Assembly: GCF_008802355.1 (NCBI RefSeq)
Contig: NZ_VZRA01000002.1
Coordinates: 127,709-191,708 of the forward strand
DNA: 64,000 nucleotides
Direction of reading: 5' to 3'
Source of the DNA: Oryzomonas sagensis
GTDB taxonomy: Bacteria; Desulfobacterota; Desulfuromonadia; Geobacterales; Pseudopelobacteraceae
Made by a program: the position numbers and the translations under genes. Below, piece by piece: positions 1 through 48,662 of this stretch (the stretch's first letter is position 1; every line of letters starts with the position of its first letter). Below the pieces are notes generated by a model. That model was not told the DNA's origin, did no database searches, and worked only from the letters and a program-made list of their open reading frames with translations.

Positions 1-29
1 TGCTCCGTATAAAGGATTGATGGTATGGG

Positions 30-1505
30 TCAGCGGTCGCTTTGCCGGGCGGCGGCAAAATGATTCACCGGGCTATGCCCCTTGCCCAGGGGGTGGGCCA
101 GGCGGATGGCGGCGGAGATGAACTCCTTGGCCTTTTCCACGGCGCTTCTGAGCGGCTCCCCTTGGGCGAGGAAGGCGGCGATGGCCGAGGCGTAGGTGCA
201 GCCGGTGCCGTGGGTGTTGCTGGTGAAGACCCGTTCCGCCGCATATTCCCGGCATTCGTAGCCGTCGAAGAGGATATCCATGGATTGACGGCCGGCCAGA
301 TGTCCCCCCTTGAGCAGAACGTTGGCCGGGCCCAGGGCGTGCAGGTCGCGGGCGGCCTGTTCCATATCCGCCTCGCAGCGGATCGCTCTCCCCAGCAGGC
401 GCTCGGCCTCGGGGATGTTGGGGGTCAGCAGGTAGGCCTGGGGCAGCAACTGTTCCAGCAGGATGCGGAGCGAGTCCCGATCCAGCAGGGTCGTGCCCCC
501 CTTGGATACCATGACCGGGTCGATGACCAGCGGGATATACCCGGTGCGCTCCGCCAGCAGTTCGGCCAAGGCCGAGACGATGGCCGAGGTGTGCAGCATG
601 CCGGTCTTGATGACGTCCACCGGGATATCGGCCAGCACGGTCGTGATCTGATCCACCACAAAGGAAGGGGGGAGGCCGTGGATGGCCGAAACCTCCCTGG
701 TATTCTGGGCGGTCAGGGCGGTCAGGGCGCTGGCGGCGTAGCTCCCCAGCAGGGTAATGGTCTTGATGTCGGCCTGGATGCCGGCTCCGCCCCCCGAGTC
801 GCTGCCGGCCACGGTCAGGACCGAGCCGCGCGGGTAGGGGCAGGTGCGGTTGAAGAGCAGTTTCAGCTCGGCGGCGGCGATGTCGGGACGGGGACTGGAC
901 AGGACCGACGAGATCACCGCCACGGCGTCGGCGCCGGCGTCGATCACCCGGCAGGCGTTGCTGGTGGTGATGCCGCCGATGGCCACCACCGGGAGCTTGA
1001 TGCGGTCGCGGATGGCGCACAGGCCGCTGGTGCCCGGCATGTGGGTGATGACCTTGCTGTCGGTCGGGTACATGGCACCGAAACCGATATAATCGGCCCC
1101 CTCCTGTTCGGCCTGGAGGGCCTCGTCCAGGTTATGGGTCGATTTGCCGACGATCTTGCCCGGGCCGAGCAGCTCCCGTGCCTCGGCAATGCCGCCGTCG
1201 TCCTGGCCCAGGTGGACGCCGTCCGCATCCAGTTCCCTGGCCAGCCGAATGTCGTCATTGACGATGAAGGTCACCCCGAAGCGCTTGCAGAGCTGCTTCA
1301 GCTCGCGCCCCTCCTCCAGGCGGGTCTCGTGGCTTTTCTCCTTGGCGCGGTACTGCAGCACCGCCACACCGCCACGCAGGGCGATCCGCACCCGTTCCAC
1401 CAGATTGTCATCCTGGTCGGTGATCAGATACACGCCCCCAACCGGCGGAAATACCTGCGCCGTATTGTTGATGACGAGACGAAACCGTTTGCTGCAGTCG
1501 TCCAT
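30..1505 (-). CDS. thiED: Fused thiamine-phosphate synthase / HMP-phosphate kinase (ThiE-ThiD)
   Basis: A 491-residue two-domain enzyme of thiamine biosynthesis. Residues about 1-215 are a ThiE TIM barrel that joins HMP-PP to thiazole phosphate (motifs VYLITD, QYRAKEK, HLGQDD, GGITTSN). Residues about 225-490 are a ThiD ribokinase-fold HMP/HMP-P kinase (LTVAGSDSGGGAGIQADIK, DPVMVSKGG, and NTHGTGCTYA near the C-terminus with the catalytic-loop GTGC). The ATG at 1505 is preceded by GAGGGAT at suitable spacing; the open frame runs further upstream but only through the riboswitch leader. Fusing the two enzymes puts HMP phosphorylation and condensation in one polypeptide. Expression is almost certainly controlled by the TPP riboswitch and terminator upstream. 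The gene stops at the left edge of the window, so downstream operon partners are not visible. Confidence 0.93.
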   Translation of the reverse strand: MDDCSKRFRLVINNTAQVFPPVGGVYLITDQDDNLVERVRIALRGGVAVLQYRAKEKSHETRLEEGRELKQLCKRFGVTFIVNDDIRLARELDADGVHLGQDDGGIAEARELLGPGKIVGKSTHNLDEALQAEQEGADYIGFGAMYPTDSKVITHMPGTSGLCAIRDRIKLPVVAIGGITTSNACRVIDAGADAVAVISSVLSSPRPDIAAAELKLLFNRTCPYPRGSVLTVAGSDSGGGAGIQADIKTITLLGSYAASALTALTAQNTREVSAIHGLPPSFVVDQITTVLADIPVDVIKTGMLHTSAIVSALAELLAERTGYIPLVIDPVMVSKGGTTLLDRDSLRILLEQLLPQAYLLTPNIPEAERLLGRAIRCEADMEQAARDLHALGPANVLLKGGHLAGRQSMDILFDGYECREYAAERVFTSNTHGTGCTYASAIAAFLAQGEPLRSAVEKAKEFISAAIRLAHPLGKGHSPVNHFAAARQSDR

Positions 1506-1523
1506 GGCATATCCCTCGTGGTA

Positions 1524-1556
1524 ATAAAAAAGCCGCACTGTTGTGATACAGGCGGC
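1524..1556 (-). terminator. Intrinsic terminator of the TPP riboswitch expression platform
   Basis: Read on the minus strand, GCCGC and GCGGC arms (extended by a CTGT/ACAG inner helix) close a small loop and are followed at once by TTTTTT, ending about 20 nt before the thiED start. Its place between aptamer and start codon indicates premature transcription termination when TPP is bound. Confidence 0.8.
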
Positions 1557-1587
1557 CGGGTTCATGGATAAGATGAACAGTCGTGCA

Positions 1588-1682
1588 AGCCGCTTTCCTA
1601 CGCCGGAATTAACCGGATCAGGTTCAAAGGGTCTGATTCCAAAAGGAATCATCTCAGCTCTTGCGAACTCCCCCAGGGCCTT
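1588..1682 (-). promoter_or_regulatory. TPP (THI-box) riboswitch aptamer
   Basis: On the minus strand the leader shows the conserved THI-box blocks in order: a GGGGAGTTC start, GCTGAGATG, ACCCTTTGAACCTGATC, then CGGTTAATTCCGGCGTAGGAAA. This matches the established TPP-binding aptamer. It lies upstream of thiED, and an intrinsic terminator follows at 1556-1524, so the likely mechanism is TPP-induced transcription termination. Confidence 0.94.
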
Positions 1683-1694
1683 GTAATTGTGTCT

Positions 1695-1723
1695 ACGGTA
1701 CTGGATTTAACCGTTCCTGTCAA
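1695..1723 (-). promoter_or_regulatory. Sigma-70 promoter for the thiED leader
   Basis: On the minus strand TTGACA (1723-1718) is followed after 17 nt by TACCGT (1700-1695). The predicted start falls a few bases before the riboswitch aptamer. The -35 is perfect and the -10 is weak (3/6). Confidence 0.6.
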
Positions 1724-1786
1724 TCCCAATGACAGCAGCGGCAGGCTGGAGGCGGTGTGGCGGCTATCGGAAACGATTTCGTTTCC

Positions 1787-1888
1787 CTACGTTAGGGCAT
1801 CGATGGTGACCTTCACCTTGCCGGTCAGCGTGACGGTGCTCTTGGATGTACAGTCATCTATGTAACCGTAAGATATACCTGGAAAATT
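1787..1888 (-). pseudogene. Possible C-terminal remnant of a lost gene
   Basis: In the 370-bp gap between the thiED leader and alr, one minus-strand frame stays open for 33 codons after an in-frame TAA and ends ...KVKVTIDALT then TAG. The last 24 codons have GC-rich third positions like real genes here, whereas the DNA just upstream is AT-rich. There is no start codon or ribosome-binding site. It could be the tail of a deleted gene or chance. The rest of the gap (1890-2077) shows no gene. Confidence 0.25.
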
Positions 1889-2077
1889 TTAAATCAAGTT
1901 ATATTTGTTTTTATGATCTGCCGTGCCCGTCCGGCTTGTAACGACAGCGACAGCGCCGGTAGCCGGCACGGCCCCGGAAACGGCGGCCCCCTTTCGCTTT
2001 ACAGCCAGGGCCGGACGTGGTAATAACCCCTTCTAAAGACATTGTCTTGCCTTTGATTCCGAAAACCAAGGAGTGTC

Positions 2078-3217
2078 ATGGTCGTGTACGACAGCCGTCC
2101 CACATTCGCCGAGATCGATCTCGACGCACTGCGCCATAATTTTGAGCTTATCCGCGCTTCCATTCCCCGCCGGACCGAGATGCTGGCGGTGGTCAAGGCC
2201 GACGCTTACGGCCACGGCTTCATGGACATCAGTCGCGAACTGGAGGCGCTGGGGGTGAACGCCTTCGGCGTCGCCTTCCTGGCCGAGGGCATTCAACTGC
2301 GCAAGAGCGGCATCGACAAGCCGATCCTGCTGTTGGGCGGGGTGTATCCGGGCCAGGAGCGCAAATGCATCGGCTACAACATCTCCACCGCCCTCTTCAC
2401 CCTAGAGCAGGCCCAGGCACTTAACCTAGCCGCCGGCAAGCTCTTTCGCAAGGCCCAGGTCCATCTCAAGATCGACACCGGCATGGGGCGCCTGGGCATC
2501 ACCTACGCCGAGGCCCCCGCGTTCCTGAGCGAATTGAAGAAGCTGCCCAACATCACCCTGGAGGGGATCGTCTCCCACTTCGCCAGCGCCGATGAACTGG
2601 ACGAATCGGGCCAGCATTTCACCCGCATCCAGGCCGAGCGGTTCTCCTGGGTGGTCGCCGAGGCCCGCAAGGCCGGCTTCTCCCCGCGCTATATCCACAT
2701 CGCCAACAGCGCTGCGGCCCTGCTCCGGGACAACGCCGGCTGCAACCTGGTCCGTCCCGGCATCGTGCTCTACGGCGCCATCCCTTCGCCCGATTTTCAA
2801 GGGAAGCTGGACCTCAAGCCGGTCATGCGCCTGAAAAGCAGCATCGCCATGCTGAAATGGGTGGAGCCGGGCACCACCATCAGCTATGCCCGCCGCTTCA
2901 CCGCCGCCGAGCGGACCCTGATCGCCAGCGTGCCGGTGGGGTATGCCGACGGTTACCCCCGCACCCTCACCAACCGGGGGGAGGCGTTGATCCGGGGCCA
3001 ACGGGCGCGGGTGGCCGGGACGGTCTGCATGGACTGGATCATGCTGGATGTGACCCATATCCCCGGCGTGGCCGTGGGGGACGAGGTGGTGCTGATGGGG
3101 ACGGACGGGGCGGGGAACTGCATCCACGCCGAGGAGTTGGCCACCCTGGCCGGTACCATCCCTTACGAGATCTTCTGCGGCATCAGCAAACGGGTGCCCA
3201 GGATTTACCTGAAATGA
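2078..3217 (+). CDS. alr: Alanine racemase
   Basis: A 379-residue PLP enzyme that interconverts L- and D-alanine for peptidoglycan. The PLP lysine lies in [10 protein letters not shown] near residue 40. The second-domain catalytic tyrosine region ISYARRF, and [10 protein letters not shown] and [10 protein letters not shown] in the C-terminal beta domain, are all present. Length is typical of the family. The ATG follows AAGGAG (2070-2075) at good spacing. It is followed by a dispersed repeat and then selD on the same strand; no functional link to selD is obvious. Confidence 0.95.
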
Positions 3218-3222
3218 TTTAG

Positions 3223-3271
3223 CTGGGACCCATAGGTCCTATAAGACTTATAGGCCCCATAGGACCGATAG
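3223..3271. repeat. Dispersed CCCATAAG/CTTATAGG-type repeat, copy 1
   Basis: This short AT/GC-mixed intergenic stretch is built from units such as CCCATAGG, CCTATAAG and CTTATAGG, with a perfect palindrome CCTATAAG-A-CTTATAGG at 3238-3254. The same units recur at about 8733, 48686 and 52247, always between genes. Confidence 0.75.
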
Positions 3272-3289
3272 CACAAACAAAGGAAAGTT

Positions 3290-4318
3290 ATGATCAAACT
3301 GACGCAGCTGGTAAAAGCCGCCGGTTGAGCCGCGAAACTGGGCCCTGCGGGCCTGGCGAAAGCCCTGGACGGGCTTTGGGATTACCGCGACGAAAACCTG
3401 CTTGTAGGTCCCGAGACCTCCGACGACGCCGGGGTCTACAGGATTGCGCCGGAGTGCGCCCTGGTGGAGACGGCCGATATCATCACCCCTCCCGTGGACG
3501 ATCCCTTCACCTTCGGCCGCGTCGCCGCCACCAACGCCATTTCCGATGTCTATGCCATGGGCGCCCGCCCCGTGACCGCCATGAACCTGGTGTTCTTTCC
3601 CGCCTGCTCCCTGCCGGGGGAGGTTCTGGGTGAAATCCTGGCCGGGGGGAACAGCGTGCTGAAAGAGTCCGGGGTTTGCCTGGTGGGGGGGCATACGGTG
3701 GAGGACGACGAGTTGAAGTACGGCCTCTCCGTGACCGGCCTGGTGGATCCCGCCGCCATCATCCGCAACTCCACCGCCCGGCCGGGGGACCTGCTGCTCC
3801 TGACCAAGCCCTTGGGCAGCGGCATCATCGCCACCGCCGTGAAGGGGGAAATGGCCCCGGAGGGGGCGGTGACCGCGGCCGCCGCCTGGATGGCCACCTC
3901 CAACCGGGCGGCCGCCGAACTGATGCGGGAATGCCGCGCCTCCGCCGCCACCGACGTGACCGGCTTCGGCCTGATCGGCCATTGCAGCGAGATGGCCCGC
4001 GGGGCCGGGGTGACGATCCGCCTGGGGCTCGACGCCATCCCGCTCATGTCCGGCGTGACCGGTTTGGCTGGCGACGGCATGGTGCCGGCCGGCTGCTACC
4101 GCAACCGGGACCACTACGCTCCCCTGGTGAGCGGGCGGGACTCCCGCGACGAAGCGCTGCTGCCGCTCTTCGACCCCCAGACCTCCGGCGGGCTCCTCAT
4201 TGCCCTGAGCCCGGCGGATGCGGAACGCTTCCTGGCCCAAGCCGGGGAGCGCGGCATCTTTGCCCGCCAGGTCGGCCTGGTGCTCCCCCCGCAAGCCCAT
4301 CCCATCGAGATAGTCTGA
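3290..4318 (+). CDS. selD: Selenophosphate synthase, selenocysteine-containing
   Basis: A 342-residue SelD that makes selenophosphate from selenide and ATP. The ATG at 3290 follows AAAGGAAAG. Codon 13 (3326-3328) is an in-frame UGA in the context LVKAAG-Sec-AAKLGP, exactly where SelD proteins carry the active-site Cys or Sec. After it the frame is open to 4318 with family motifs: [49 protein letters not shown] and [15 protein letters not shown]-like hairpin begins 9 nt after the UGA. Standard gene callers would start the gene at 3464 and lose the catalytic N-terminus. The stop codon overlaps the next start (TGATG), which points to translational coupling with the ASKHA ATPase. Confidence 0.95.
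3338..3356 (+). promoter_or_regulatory. Bacterial SECIS-like hairpin in selD
   Basis: CTGGGCCC pairs with GGGCCTGG around a TGC loop: five G-C pairs plus closing G-U, U-G and C-G pairs. It begins 9 nt after the UGA; the strong minihelix begins about 11 nt after it, the spacing known for bacterial SECIS elements bound by SelB. Its role is inferred from position and structure. Confidence 0.7.
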
Positions 4319-42264: not shown

Positions 42265-42683
42265 TCACTCTCCTTTTTTTCCATCCTGGCCGCTTCGGCC
42301 TCGCCGCTCCGTTCGTGGTCATAGCCGCGCAGGTGCAGGATGCCGTGCAGCAGCAGAAAGCAGATCCGATCGAAGGTTTCCATCTCACCCTCCTCGGCCT
42401 CCCGGGCAGCGGTGTCGGCCGAGATGACTACATCTCCCAGGGCATGGGGCGCGATGCCGGCGTATTCCCCCTCCTGGAGGGAGAAGGAGATGACGTTGGT
42501 GGGACGGTCCTTCGCCAGGTATTCCCGGTTGATGATGCGGATGGCGCGGTCGCCGACGATGGAGACGGACAACTCGGTCTCGTCAGAACATGCCAAGGCG
42601 CTTAAGATCCTCTCCGCCACCTTTCTTAGGCGGGTCGCCATGATCCGGTGTCGTCTCTGGCGGTTGTTCAACTGTATCAGCAC
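42222..42683 (-). CDS. ybeY: Endoribonuclease YbeY
   Basis: A 153-residue metalloprotein for 16S rRNA 3'-end maturation and ribosome quality control. The zinc motif HGILHLRGYDH (H-x3-H-x5-H) is intact, and RPTNVISFSLQEG is characteristic. The GTG at 42683, preceded by GGAGA, gives the normal N-terminus (VLIQLNNRQRRHR); an ATG further upstream (42764) would add a Pro/Ala-rich tail-less extension. This start means the first 101 bp overlap the end of the pgpH-like gene in another frame. A run of seven A (ATGGAAAAAAAGGAG) lies near the 3' end, before the downstream gene's start. Confidence 0.9.
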   Translation of the reverse strand: MLIQLNNRQRRHRIMATRLRKVAERILSALACSDETELSVSIVGDRAIRIINREYLAKDRPTNVISFSLQEGEYAGIAPHALGDVVISADTAAREAEEGEMETFDRICFLLLHGILHLRGYDHERSGEAEAARMEKKESELFNLLKKEGFLNP

Positions 42684-45039
42684 TTGCTTGGTCTCCGTTT
42701 CCCGGCTTGCCGTGCTCGCCGGAGCTGGTTTTATGCTCGGCCTTCTTTTGGCCGCTGTTTCCACCCTTGTAGACCGGTTCGGGATAATCGATCCGGTGGT
42801 GGAAGATGCCGTTCAGGATGCGGTTGAAGCTTTTGGCGATCTCGTGGAGGTTTTTGAGGGTCAGTTCGCACTCCTCAAGCTGGCCGTCCATGAAGATATT
42901 GTTGATGATCTTCTGCACCATCCCCTGGATGCGGTCCGGGGTGGGATTGACGAGGGTGCGGGAGGCCGCCTCCACGCAGTCGGCCAGCATGACGATGCCG
43001 GCTTCCCTGGTTTGGGGTTTGGGGCCGGGGTAGCGGAAATCCTTGTCCTCCACCGTCTGGCCGGTCGCCTCGGCCTGGGTCCTGGCCCGGTCGTAGAAGA
43101 ATTTGATCAACCCGGTGCCGTGGTGCTGGCGGATGATGTCGGTGATCGGCTGCCCCAGGTGCCGCTCCCGGGCCAGTTCGGCCCCCTCCTTGATATGGGA
43201 GATCAGGATCAGGGCGCTCATGCTGGGGGTCAGCTTGTCGTGGCGATTCTCTTCGCCCCCCAGGTTCTCGATGAAGTAGAGCGGCTTGGAGATCTTGCCG
43301 ATGTCGTGGTAATAGGCGGCCACCCGTGCCAGCAGGGGATTGGCGCTGATGGACTCGGCGGCGGACTCCACCAGATTGCCCACCACCACGCTGTGGTGAT
43401 AGGTGCCCGGGGCCCGCACCATCAGATCCCGCAGGAGTGGGGAATTGAGGTTGGCCAGTTCCAGGAGCTTGATGTCGGTGGTGTAATGGAACAGCGTCTC
43501 GATGAGCGGGATGAAGCCGGAAACGAGGCCGGCGCTCAATACGCCGCTCACCAGGGCGAAGAAAACCACATAGATCGTCTGCATGCTGAACAGGGTGGCG
43601 CTGGAGGTCTGAAAGGAGAGGGCCATGGCCAGGTTGACCACCGACACCTTCAGGCCGGCGGTGTAGATGGTGCTCCGGTCCGAGCACTGGCGCACCCCGT
43701 GGGCACCCACGATGCTCCCCAGCATGGTATAGATCACCACCGTCATGTTGCCGTCGAACATGATCCCCAGGAGGGGGGCCAGGATGGCGCAATAGACCAG
43801 GGCCACCTCGGAGTTGATGAAGATGCGCACGATCATGGGCCCGGCGGCAAAGGGGAACAGGTAGAAGAACGAGGCGGTGTCGATGTCCGGGAAGACCGGG
43901 CCGATATTGTGGGTGATCAGGATCGCGATCTTGAAGAGCAGGAAGCTGCCGATAATCAAGAGCGATATGGTCAGGATGTCCTTATTGGTCGGATTGAACT
44001 TGCGGATGTTCTTCAAGGCGAAACGGTAGGGGAAATAGAACAGCACCACGATCAGGGTGAAGATGCCGATGGCCGAATAGATACGGCTGCCGCCCCGGTT
44101 CTCCTGGAAGATCGCTTGCAGCTTGTGGGTTTGCTCGGGGCTGATCCGCTCCCCGACCCGGACGATCATCTCCCCCTTCTGGACCTTGAAGAGCACCGGC
44201 CTGACCGATTCCGTGGCCGCCTTGGCCCGGGCCTCCGACGCCTCGCGGTTGTAGAACAGGTTCGGCAGGAGGATGCGGGCGATCACGCGGGCGATGGCGC
44301 TCCCGTCGGTACGGTCGTTCTGGCCGGAAAACTGCCAGGAAGTCACCAGTCTGCGGGCCTCCCGAATCTCGGTGTACTCCAGGGCCACGTCGCTGTCCTC
44401 GACGAGTTGGCCGTTGTCGTCGATCAGCTCCAAGCCCCTTCTGGTGTCGGTCTGAAAGGCCTTGCCGTCGAGGACGATCCGGCGGCGGTACAGTTCGTTC
44501 ACCATGCGGGCGGCATCCGCCAGAAAAACCTTGTCCGAGGCGATATGGGTGAAGGCGTGGATATCCGCTGCGCTCAGTTCCGTGTCCAAAAGCGGCGTCA
44601 GCAGGGTCCGCCATTCGTGCGTACTCTTCTGGCTCTTGGCCGTACGCTCCTTGCGGACCGCGCCCACCACCTGCTCGAGTTTGCCGATGATGTAGGAGGG
44701 GACGCGGTCGCTGACGTTGTAGACCACCGGCGCGCTGTTGCCGGCCTCTTTGCGGCGCTGCTCGGTCAGGGCGTGATCTTCCACCAGATAGTCCTGGGGG
44801 GCGCGGATATCGGAGGTGGCGATGTCGCCCGGCTTGAATTCGGCCGAGTGGAACCGCTGGCCGGGGAGCAGGATGAGGGTCAGCAGGAGGGCGGTCGTAA
44901 CAAGGAGGATAAACCTGTTCCGACGGGCTGTCAGTGGGTTGGAGAACCTTTTTACGACCACGTCCAGGAGGTTCGATCCCAGTTTGCTCAGGTAGGTCAG
45001 CGTATGTTGGCCCTGATTATCGGCAGGTTGGTCAGGCAT
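42583..45039 (-). CDS. 7TM-HD receptor hydrolase, PgpH-like (c-di-AMP phosphodiesterase family)
   Basis: An 818-residue membrane protein. A first helix (about residues 42-60), a long extracytoplasmic 7TMR-HDED domain (about 65-320), seven helices (about 325-510), then a cytoplasmic HD domain (about 520-720) with RAPGTYHHSVVVGNLVESAAE, AAYYHDIGKISKP and IIRQHHGTGLIKFFY. This is the PgpH layout; Listeria PgpH hydrolyses c-di-AMP. The C-terminal 50 residues are hydrophilic (Gly/Lys/Pro/Glu) and are encoded where ybeY begins. A near-consensus promoter lies 60 nt upstream. Whether the nucleotide ligand is c-di-AMP in this organism is inference. Confidence 0.9.
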   Translation of the reverse strand: MPDQPADNQGQHTLTYLSKLGSNLLDVVVKRFSNPLTARRNRFILLVTTALLLTLILLPGQRFHSAEFKPGDIATSDIRAPQDYLVEDHALTEQRRKEAGNSAPVVYNVSDRVPSYIIGKLEQVVGAVRKERTAKSQKSTHEWRTLLTPLLDTELSAADIHAFTHIASDKVFLADAARMVNELYRRRIVLDGKAFQTDTRRGLELIDDNGQLVEDSDVALEYTEIREARRLVTSWQFSGQNDRTDGSAIARVIARILLPNLFYNREASEARAKAATESVRPVLFKVQKGEMIVRVGERISPEQTHKLQAIFQENRGGSRIYSAIGIFTLIVVLFYFPYRFALKNIRKFNPTNKDILTISLLIIGSFLLFKIAILITHNIGPVFPDIDTASFFYLFPFAAGPMIVRIFINSEVALVYCAILAPLLGIMFDGNMTVVIYTMLGSIVGAHGVRQCSDRSTIYTAGLKVSVVNLAMALSFQTSSATLFSMQTIYVVFFALVSGVLSAGLVSGFIPLIETLFHYTTDIKLLELANLNSPLLRDLMVRAPGTYHHSVVVGNLVESAAESISANPLLARVAAYYHDIGKISKPLYFIENLGGEENRHDKLTPSMSALILISHIKEGAELARERHLGQPITDIIRQHHGTGLIKFFYDRARTQAEATGQTVEDKDFRYPGPKPQTREAGIVMLADCVEAASRTLVNPTPDRIQGMVQKIINNIFMDGQLEECELTLKNLHEIAKSFNRILNGIFHHRIDYPEPVYKGGNSGQKKAEHKTSSGEHGKPGNGDQASADTVEQPPETTPDHGDPPKKGGGEDLKRLGMF

Positions 45040-45930: not shown

Positions 45931-46335
45931 CTACCTTTTAGAGGCAATGATCTCGTGCCAGTTGTCCCGGTTGAGCTCGACCAGAATGGTCTTGGCGCCG
46001 GCGTATTCGGGAGAATCTATCTCGATGGTGTAGTCGTCGCGGGAAAACGGCCCCGCCAGGCTGAAATTGCCGATATGGTCCGTGTCGGCACTTGATACGA
46101 CCGCCGCTTGCGTTTTTCTCTTGAGTACGACACGCACGCCGCTGATGGGGGTAACGCGGTCCTCCCGCAAGACCGTGCCGCTTATGAGGGTCGGCTTGAT
46201 TGCCGCTGCCGTCGCATTGCTCGCGGGGCTGTGGGGGGCGTTCTGCCTGAGGGCGTCGTCGCCCTTACCGATGCAGCCGCTCAACGATATGCAGGAGATG
46301 CCGAAAAGTGTGGCGATAATGAATTTTCCGAACAT
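45931..46335 (-). CDS. Lipoprotein with carboxypeptidase-regulatory-like (Ig) domain
   Basis: A 134-residue lipoprotein: lipobox ISLSGCIGKG, a short linker, then a beta-sandwich TLISGTVLREDRVTPISGVRVVLKRK...GNFSLAGPFSRDDYTIEIDSPEY, the CarboxypepD_reg pattern. AAGGGGAAGC precedes the ATG. It is probably an outer-membrane or periplasmic accessory protein; no partner is adjacent. Confidence 0.78.
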   Translation of the reverse strand: MFGKFIIATLFGISCISLSGCIGKGDDALRQNAPHSPASNATAAAIKPTLISGTVLREDRVTPISGVRVVLKRKTQAAVVSSADTDHIGNFSLAGPFSRDDYTIEIDSPEYAGAKTILVELNRDNWHEIIASKR

Positions 46336-46936
46336 GATGCTTCCCCTTGTCCCCCGGCCGGATTCGTCTCTTCCCGGATGACACGCTCGTATGCAGCTTG
46401 ACTGCTCTCCTGCGCCATTCTCCTCGATGCTTAAAGCCCATCCGGTGACGTCTCCGGGAATTCCTCAATTCGACGACGCGGCTGTGTGCAGAAGGATGGG
46501 GGCGATCTGCTGGGATTGCTATCTTCATTAGAATATATACCCCTCTTGCTCGGAGGTAAAGTATATTTCAATAGCAATTTCAGTATGTTAAAAAAATTAA
46601 CATTTTTTGCGAGGTGTTAAAAAAAATAACACTCCCGGAGTATTTTCAAACTTGCCGTAATTGCGCGATAAATATATATTATAGTCCCTCATGGCGTCCT
46701 TGTTTGTATCATTTTGACGCACTACCGCATCACGGGGTTCTGGGGATGGCGGATAACGACGGCAAACCCCTGCGACATTTTTTGCAGGCGGGTACATTAG
46801 TTGACTCAAATAATATGCGTGATTTCGCTGCGTTGGCTATCTGCCGGGCACAACAGGGTAATATCAGTCGCAGGCGTATACGATATACCAATCATATAAT
46901 ATGCCGAAATGATTTACTAAAATAGTTTAGAGCGTT
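46336..46936. other. Long AT-rich intergenic region, no supported gene
   Basis: About 600 bp, clearly richer in A and T than its surroundings from 46520 to 46930. It holds the paired palindromes at 46586-46632 and a CCTGC...GCAGG hairpin near 46769-46788. Short open frames here have poor ribosome-binding sites and atypical codon use. It is best read as a control region for the chemoreceptor, possibly with remnants of acquired DNA. Confidence 0.5.
46586..46632. promoter_or_regulatory. Two tandem TGTTA-N7-TAACA palindromes
   Basis: TGTTAAAAAAATTAACA (46586-46602) and GTGTTAAAAAAAATAACAC (46614-46632) are two near-identical palindromes with centres 29 bp apart, close to three helical turns. They look like a cooperative binding site, plausibly an activator site for the sigma-54 promoter about 310 bp downstream. 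Confidence 0.55.
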
Positions 46937-46952
46937 TGGCGCGTAGCTTGCT
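46937..46952 (+). promoter_or_regulatory. Sigma-54 (RpoN) promoter of the chemoreceptor gene
   Basis: TGGCGCG-TAGC-TTGCT has the invariant GG and GC doublets 12 bp apart and differs from the TGGCACG-N4-TTGCW consensus at one base. It lies 65 nt before the chemoreceptor ATG. Confidence 0.75.
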
Positions 46953-47015
46953 AACCGCAATGGGCACCAAGGGACCAATAGCGTCGTAATTATCATAAAA
47001 CTGCGGGAGGTCGAG

Positions 47016-48662
47016 ATGAGCGTGTGGGCGGATATGAAGGTAAAGGCGAAGATCATGACGCTAGTGCTGGCGAGCTGTGCCGCGCTGCTGCTGGTGGGGG
47101 GCTTCGGGGTGGTGAACATGTCCAGCATGAACGGCGACGAGGCGGCGCTCAAGGACGGCATGCAGCAGACCGCGCTGCTTCAGGACCTGAAAAACTGCTT
47201 CCTGGCCATGCGGCTGGATGTGGTCTATATGCTGGCGCTCAGGGATGCGGAGCAGATCGCCGAAAAGGGCAAGGACTTCTCCGTCCAGATCGAGAGCGTC
47301 CGGACCAAGCTGGGAACCTACGAGAAGAGTGCCATCAGCGCCAAGGAAAGGGAAGAGCTTGGGGCCTTCCGGCAGGGATTCGAGGCCTATGCCGTGGAAG
47401 GGACCAAGCTGGCCGCGATGGCCAAGGCGGCCCACGCCTCGGGCGATGCGGCGGCCATCGGGGCGGCCCTGGCTTTTGCCACCGACAAGGTGGCGCCCCT
47501 GTACGACAAGCCGGCCCAGACCATCGCCGATATGGTGACGTCCAACGTCAGGGAGGGCGAAGATACCTACCGGCACAGCAGCGATACCTTCCGGCGTATC
47601 CGGCTGGTGCTGCTGGCGGTGGTGGCCCTGGTGGCGGCGGTCTCCCTCCTGGGGGGTAGCCTGATCGCCAACTCCGTATCACGTCCGCTCCAGGCGGTCC
47701 TTGGCACCCTCCGGGAGGTGGCCGGGGGCAACCTGATCGTCCGTTCCCCCATCGCCAGCGAGGACGAGATGGGGATGCTGGCCCGGGAGGTGAACGGCAC
47801 CGCCGAGAAGCTGCACACGATCATCTCCATGGTGGCGGGGAACAGCGCCCAGGTGGCTTCCGCGGCGGCCGAGCTGCACGCCACCGCCGCCGAGATGGCC
47901 ACCGGGGCCGAGCAGATGGCGGCCCAGGCCGGCACCGTGGCCACGGCCAGCGAGGAGATGTCCGCCACCAGCGGCGACATCGCCCAGAACTGTCACCATG
48001 CGGCATCGGGCGCGCTCCACTCCAGCCAGGCCGCCGAGAACGGCGCGGGCGTCGTGGAGAACACCGTCCAGGTCATGGGACGCATCGCCAGCCGGGTGAT
48101 GGACACGGCCAAGACCGTGGAGAGCCTGGGGGCGCGCAGCGACCAGATCGGCGAGATCGTGGGGACCATCGAGGACATTGCGGACCAGACCAACCTTTTG
48201 GCCCTGAACGCGGCCATCGAGGCGGCCCGTGCCGGCGAGCAGGGGCGCGGCTTCGCCGTGGTCGCCGACGAGGTGCGGGCGCTGGCGGAGCGGACCACCA
48301 AGGCGACCCGCGAGATCGGCGAGATGATCAAGGCGATCCAGGGCGAGACCAAGGGCGCGGTGGGGGCCATGGAAGAGGGGGTCAGGGAGGTGGAGAGCGG
48401 CACCAGCGAGGCGGCCAAATCGGGCGCGGCGTTGCAGTCGATCCTGGAGCAGATCAACGCGGTGAACATGCAGGTAAGCCAGATCGCCACGGCGGCCGAG
48501 GAGCAGACGGCGACGACCAGCGAGATCAGCAGCAACATCCAGCAGATCAACGAGGTGGTGCAGCATACGGCCCGGGGGGCCAGCGAGTCGGTCATCGCCG
48601 CCAACCAACTTTCCACCCTGGCCGAGGAGTTGCAACGGCTGGTGGGGCAGTTCAAGCTGTAA
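47016..48662 (+). CDS. Methyl-accepting chemotaxis protein
   Basis: A 548-residue chemoreceptor. A membrane helix (about residues 12-34), a four-helix-bundle periplasmic sensor (about 35-190), a second helix (about 192-214), HAMP (about 215-268) and a signalling domain whose hairpin tip reads [38 protein letters not shown]. The ATG follows GGGAGGTCGAG. A sigma-54 promoter upstream suggests co-regulation with motility or pili genes. No CheB/R-binding pentapeptide is seen at the C-terminus (GQFKL). Ligand unknown. Confidence 0.95.

Follow-up and report, generated by a model that had tools for sequence, protein, structure and literature searches.

The window analysed here is a 64,000-nucleotide stretch of the Oryzomonas sagensis genome, in which a methyl-accepting chemotaxis protein gene (47016..48662, plus strand; domains 4HB_MCP_1, HAMP and MCPsignal) is separated by a 680-bp intergenic region from a minus-strand gene for a CarboxypepD_reg-like protein (45931..46335; Pfam PF13620), which was assigned as a lipoprotein by reading its signal sequence. 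The genome is very close to that of O. japonica, and the chemoreceptor is 93% identical to its nearest named record (L011, O. japonica). Downstream of the lipoprotein gene, also on the minus strand, lies a gene for a 7TMR-HDED / 7TM-7TMR_HD / HD domain protein (42583-45039). The first-pass annotation of the intergenic region had joined a sigma-54-type -24/-12 site and a distant pair of TGTTA-N7-TAACA palindromes into one enhancer-dependent promoter of the chemoreceptor gene. By inference, genome G002 is taken throughout to be O. japonica, and the genus to be Oryzomonas.

The -24/-12 site, TGGCGCG-TAGC-TTGCT, was confirmed at 46937..46952 on the plus strand, 79 bp before the ATG of the chemoreceptor gene, and is the only exact match to TGGCRCGN4TTGCW on either strand of the window. 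It holds the GG-N10-GC core in a TGGCAC/TTGC context, and when the intergenic region was shuffled 5000 times, an exact match on the plus strand arose once. At up to two mismatches, sigma-54-like sites in the window as a whole were not significant, with 7 found against 10.6 expected. The site is kept at two orthologous loci, in O. japonica (G002) and in the congener G004, with altered flanks and an altered N4 spacer, and its distance to the ATG is again 79 bp in G004. This conservation and the rpoN gene present in the genome support a sigma-54 promoter before the chemoreceptor. The window site, TTGGCGCG-N4-TTGCT, also fits the RpoN consensus of Geobacter sulfurreducens promoters, TTGGCACGGTTTTTGCT (PMC2725144), a likeness relevant to the chemoreceptor promoter only and not to the palindromes. 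From its sequence, then, the chemoreceptor seems to be served by a separate, conserved, predicted sigma-54 promoter at 46937, and a well-supported candidate promoter is gained for this gene.

The two palindromes, TGTTAAAAAAATTAACA at 46586-46602 and TGTTAAAAAAAATAACA at 46615-46631, were also found where they had been described, each with 0 mismatches to TGTTA-N7-TAACA and above chance. With up to one mismatch allowed, exactly 2 sites occur in the window against 0.15 expected, and 5000 dinucleotide shuffles of the intergenic region gave at least one palindrome in 5 cases and two in 0. Their surroundings are indeed AT-rich (35% G+C at 46540-46720 versus 63% across the window); the spacing had been called three helical turns but is 29 bp start to start, or ~2.8 turns of 10.5 bp. 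The genome contains 24 exact TGTTA-N7-TAACA sites (hereafter palindrome B) versus 0 for the reversed control pattern, and the stricter form TGTTAA-N5-TTAACA has 19 exact sites in this genome and 22, 44 and 29 in three good congeners, the 44 being those of G003.

Many B sites have similar flanks, and a composite element was recognised on this basis, the orientation being ambiguous at some sites of the flank comparison. The element is ~165-200 bp long and consists, from 5' to 3', of palindrome A (TGTATCAAAATGATACA), a GC-rich terminator hairpin with a T run, TGTGAAAACAG, ~25 variable bases, one or two palindromes B, and a sigma-70-like promoter made up of TTGAAA, 17 bases and TAGAAGGGGG. A profile model, R1, gave 21 matches in this genome (G000; one of them weak), beside unrelated genes, and 22, 30 and 26 matches in the congeners G002, G003 and G004, respectively; two less complete congener genomes gave 4 and 7. 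No R1 match was obtained in 51 genomes of other genera, a search with stricter filters in which 50 candidates were scored per genome, so that weak copies elsewhere could be missed. From the 99 matches of G000, G002, G003 and G004 we examined 94, leaving out the weak one of G000 and four of G004; flank comparisons exclude the matches of the two less complete genomes (G001 and G005). One tRNA gene is followed directly by the element in G000 and G002; in the other four congeners the element was not found at this position. Fourteen of the 24 exact B sites of this genome fall inside composite elements and 10 outside, so the binding protein may have another role too.

The arrangement of the boxes was compared among the 94 elements. 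B boxes (up to three mismatches) are present in 93 of them, as a single box in 51 and as two in 42, and the two boxes are 28-30 bp apart in all 42 two-box copies. The distance from the last B box to TTGAAA is 13 bp in 45 copies and 14 bp in 41, which accounts for all 86 copies with the box within 8-18 bp. A -35/-10-like pair scoring at least 9/12 occurs in 94/94 elements, with a 17-bp spacer in 75, whereas 2000 random segments yielded such a pair in 616 cases, and one with a 17-bp spacer in 105. Because the copies share ancestry, these fixed spacings are not independent observations. For palindrome A, the pattern TGTATCA-N3-TGATACA with up to two mismatches has 18 matches in the genome: 15 lie in composite elements, 2 elsewhere, and the remaining one 29 bp from a B palindrome (contig C4). 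At locus L109, palindromes A and B (3892-3908 and 3921-3937) are separated by 29 bp, the usual B-B spacing, which suggests that the two types are versions of a single operator.

The hairpin covaries among copies. Across 95 aligned matches the hairpin stem is paired in 88.6% of cells versus 76.6% in shuffles, with 131 both-side changes versus 40, and slid structures reach at most 58.7% pairing; the alignment was fitted to the model structure, which favours pairing. When 15 of 39 eligible orthologous pairs were compared (each element used once, identity at least 0.75), divergence was 5/210 in the B arms, 4/147 in the B centres and 3/90 in the -35 box. It was 14/196 in the A arms, 67/450 in the hairpin and 10/90 in the -10 box, compared with 272/1286 in undesignated element DNA and 46/255 in the 17-bp spacer. 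The B arms are thus about nine-fold less divergent than undesignated element DNA; boxes were marked in one of the two sequences compared, which slightly biases box divergence towards low values. No known Rfam RNA family reached its gathering score on an element in a scan of 19 loci other than the window, its three matches all being off-element.

In the window, R1 places the element at 46559..46721 on the minus strand (118.5 bits, this copy being in the training set), and the leave-one-out model R2 recovers it on the same strand with an E value of 1e-8, the next match having an E value of 0.53; the whole element extends over 46541-46721. All its parts read on the minus strand. Palindrome A is at 46705..46721 (TGCGTCAAAATGATACA, 2 changes from TGTATCAAAATGATACA), followed by the decayed remnant of the terminator hairpin (46671..46701), in which 8 of 12 model pairs are non-standard. 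Then come the first copy of palindrome B in element orientation (46615..46631), the second copy (46586..46602), which ends 14 bp before a -35-like box TTGAAA (46566..46571) that agrees with the family consensus, and a decayed -10-like position (46543..46548) that reads CAAGAG for the family's TAGAAG. An alternative promoter pair, TTTACC-17-TATATT, lies at 46560-46532. The first-pass annotation was correct about the palindromes themselves and missed palindrome A, the minus-strand -35-like box and the copies elsewhere. The window copy is partly decayed, having lost most of the hairpin and the consensus -10 and kept its operators. The -10 is non-consensus both in this genome and in O. japonica, so the window copy may be silent. 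By eye, the G004 orthologue keeps the TAGAAG -10 and also has a degenerate hairpin, and the G003 copy has an intact hairpin and a -10 that reads TTATAC.

The window copy faces away from the chemoreceptor and toward the lipoprotein gene 45931-46335, which is the likely target of the element. Both neighbours of the element are kept in O. japonica and G004. In G003 the element stands before a homologue of the lipoprotein gene (47% identity), but the neighbour on its upstream side is another one. The chemoreceptor has its best homologue (61% over 228 residues) elsewhere in that genome, with neither the palindromes nor a sigma-54 site upstream of it. The first-pass annotation had named absence of the palindromes from orthologous loci as a ground for giving up its model. 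They are present at the two close loci, those of O. japonica and G004, and absent before the G003 chemoreceptor homologue, which for the chemoreceptor goes against that model if this 61% homologue is its orthologue. Put in terms of a regulated gene, the palindromes stay with the chemoreceptor in G002 and G004 but not in G003.

These results bear directly on the earlier model, in which an enhancer-binding protein would use the palindromes as upstream activating sequences and act at the chemoreceptor sigma-54 promoter. In favour of it, the nearer palindrome is ~305 bp from a sigma-54 site that is both good and conserved, and palindromes and site are retained together in O. japonica and G004. However, the genome check of whether the palindromes recur near RpoN promoters, with up to one mismatch allowed outside an invariant GG and GC, gave 3 sigma-54-like sites at most 500 bp from any of the 94 elements, all of them at the window locus and its two orthologues. 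The density of such sites was 0.028/kb near elements (3 in 108 kb) versus 0.047/kb in far DNA (23 in 492 kb). Sigma-54 sites near elements are thus no denser than in far DNA. The sigma-70-like promoter of the element faces the opposite way, and in G003 the element accompanies the lipoprotein homologue and not the chemoreceptor homologue. The palindromes and the 46937 site therefore appear to be neighbours rather than one promoter. A single enhancer-dependent promoter is thus not supported, the palindromes being part of a minus-strand composite element, and we give the enhancer model a very slim chance, although a B-binding protein may secondarily affect the chemoreceptor. As to known motifs of enhancer-binding proteins, the string TGTTA was not found in the main text, figures aside, of a paper on sigma-54 in D. 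vulgaris (PMC4641369).

The genes that follow the elements were called with a simple ORF script, so neighbour assignments are crude. On the downstream side, 70 of 93 calls have the adjacent gene in the same orientation as the element, versus 48 of 94 on the upstream side, and third-position G+C is 0.57 in downstream genes versus 0.69 in upstream genes (Mann-Whitney p 6e-6, the copies being non-independent). Downstream genes are varied, encoding SIR2-like proteins, DUF2726 proteins, outer membrane proteins, chemoreceptors and others. Among 61 downstream proteins (60 from a filter and one SIR2 gene added by hand), matches to a defence library were scattered, involving 64 families, and each of the 25 families listed matches one protein. 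At L090, a SIR2-like defence-type gene (2-3418, minus strand) lies directly behind the element, and other DNA occupies this position at the orthologous G002 and G004 elements. A DUF2726 gene region (L105 3029-4012; around G003:C1:164258 and G004:C1:2234917) recurs behind elements whose upstream neighbours differ from species to species.

Several loci share the upstream gene and the element between species but differ in the downstream gene. In five of seven loci compared by eye, homology stops no more than ~20 bp from the promoter end, and in the other two it continues for ~40 and ~90 bp. Five loci were followed further: in most of them conserved DNA returns after a gap of kilobases, and in one empty site after ~50 bp. 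When 92 of the 94 elements were used to classify cross-genome pairs, with pairs of intermediate homology left out, 26 of the 47 classified pairs keep the upstream side only, 8 the downstream side only and 13 both. A control tempers this pattern of upstream-kept and downstream-variable DNA: with 90 of the 94 elements, of 37 upstream-homologous pairs, 24 lost homology across the element, whereas 11 of 37 did so at a point one kilobase more distant on the upstream side (Fisher p 0.036 on kept pairs, which are not independent), and from the downstream side the loss was 8/21 across the element versus 7/21 in the control. In many cases the promoter of the element has a conserved gene on one side and a variable gene on the other.

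Sequence comparison establishes the order and spacing of the module, the number of its copies, their confinement to a single genus within the sample of genomes, the conservation of the boxes and the covariation of the hairpin. Our preferred reading, to which we assign a probability of roughly 0.7, is that the palindromes are putative operators of a dimeric DNA-binding protein within a genus-specific, dispersed intergenic promoter module, the chemoreceptor being separately under sigma-54. The hairpin of intact copies would end transcription arriving from upstream, and the dimeric protein would sit on B at about -57/-58, and in two-box copies also at about -86/-87. Once bound, it would switch the sigma-70-type promoter TTGAAA-17-TAGAAG, from which transcription would enter the gene that follows, in many cases one of foreign appearance. 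Genes placed after an element would in this way come under shared control, and the module in the window would be directed to the lipoprotein gene 45931-46335. What began as a guess about an enhancer at one locus would then become a genus-wide system in which one protein acts on tens of near-identical operators per genome. The binder, if found, would show how iron-reducing soil bacteria bring newly acquired genes under shared control.

A TetR-type regulator beside one B site (L095) was considered as the general binder and rejected, because G003, with its 44 exact TGTTAA-N5-TTAACA sites, has no homologue passing an E value of 1e-15. Among the operators of Rex, FNR, CRP and Fur we know of none that fits the 6-5-6 arms of B.

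A further idea is that the elements form a dispersed, chromosomally fixed expression platform for gene uptake. Terminator, operator and promoter would be kept behind core genes, and interchangeable accessory genes (SIR2 and other defence-like genes) would repeatedly be placed after the promoter under a common regulator, an integron-like logic without the integrase. The homology-loss control weakly supports this idea, which we regard as unlikely but worth stating. An integron proper was also considered and rejected: the integrase IntI (TIGR02249) scored above its cut-off in none of the six congener genomes, and matches below the cut-off also occurred in all 14 control genomes.

Alternatively, the element may be a miniature mobile repeat of the MITE or REP type, whose palindromes would be recognised by a transposase or recombinase and would not be operators for gene control. 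Its multiple dispersed copies, its restriction to one genus, its tandem copies, the existence of loci with and without it (such as the position directly behind the tRNA gene) and a Y1 transposase gene ~1.6 kb from one copy would all be in keeping with mobility. At the junctions inspected by eye, however, neither a terminal inverted repeat nor a target duplication was seen, and one intact copy had no match in phage or plasmid collections. Hairpin stems differ among copies yet covary, and the boxes are constrained in orthologues, which is more than a passive repeat needs; this argues against the mobile-repeat explanation, and we hold it to be rather improbable. That the sites bind a nucleoid or xenogeneic-silencing protein marking AT-rich foreign genes we consider very unlikely, even though many downstream genes are low in third-position G+C, the palindromes are AT-rich, and arrays of B alone occur at 55-77 bp and, in two genomes of another family, similar arrays at 63-64 or 127-129 bp. 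Highly specific 17-bp palindromes at a fixed promoter spacing resemble classical operators instead, and several of the downstream genes (a chemoreceptor, an outer membrane protein) are ordinary.

A phage or plasmid origin was rejected as well, since no DNA similar to one intact copy was present in either collection. The exact promoter-end pattern was not found in viral contigs, and one viral contig with a B-B pair differs in its centres and context and looks like a chance occurrence. The IS200-like (Y1) transposase gene mentioned above (L098 4801-5736, plus strand) lies behind its element and has a weak match to a DnaA-type C-terminal helix-turn-helix.

In Class I arrangements of sigma-70 promoters, a palindromic operator lies at a fixed distance upstream of the -35, with its centre at -61.5. 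The element shares such an operator at a fixed distance upstream of its -35, but by sequence its B centre would be at about -57/-58, and it is a repeated module that carries a terminator and a second type of palindrome. REP/RAYT and MITE repeats are short, dispersed intergenic repeats with inverted symmetry, properties that the element has too, whereas it additionally holds a putative operator and promoter with fixed spacing.

The genomes of G. metallireducens and G. bemidjiensis contain many multicopy intergenic sequences, some palindromic or paired and some proposed as sites of global regulators (PMC2700814, PMC2996986). Like the composite element, these are dispersed intergenic families in related bacteria. 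The repeat consensuses given in the text and legends of those reports (e.g. GTTGCTYN, TCTCCGTS, MTYCTGA, CCYTC), supplementary alignments aside, differ from the element motif (PMC2700814, PMC2996986), and a related family may be present in the supplementary Geobacter alignments.

Several further arrangements were noted. At L205 and G003:C1:138458-138818, two tandem elements are separated by 226 bp that include a short GACAGTAT...ATACTGTCCCC stretch. The terminator region found after the upstream core gene is present there a second time, just before the first element. B palindromes also occur without a composite element, at L107 (2611/2676/2753), L108 (3104/3170/3225) and L092 (3101/3167), as arrays of two or three sites with spacings of 55, 65, 66 or 77 bp; in some arrays TTGTAAC lies between the sites. 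In another family of the order (L254 and L258 in G039; L259 in G042), the same palindrome (TGTTAATTTTATTAACA) occurs in arrays with spacings of 63-64 or 127-129 bp, with no clear composite element. Finally, at the right ends of the variable segments of six loci (L218, L219, L220, L221, L222 and L229), two kinds of sequence were seen by eye to recur where the conserved flanks resume: one resembling a tRNA 3' part (complement of GGTTCGAGTCCGTAC), in most of these loci, and attC-like stretches.
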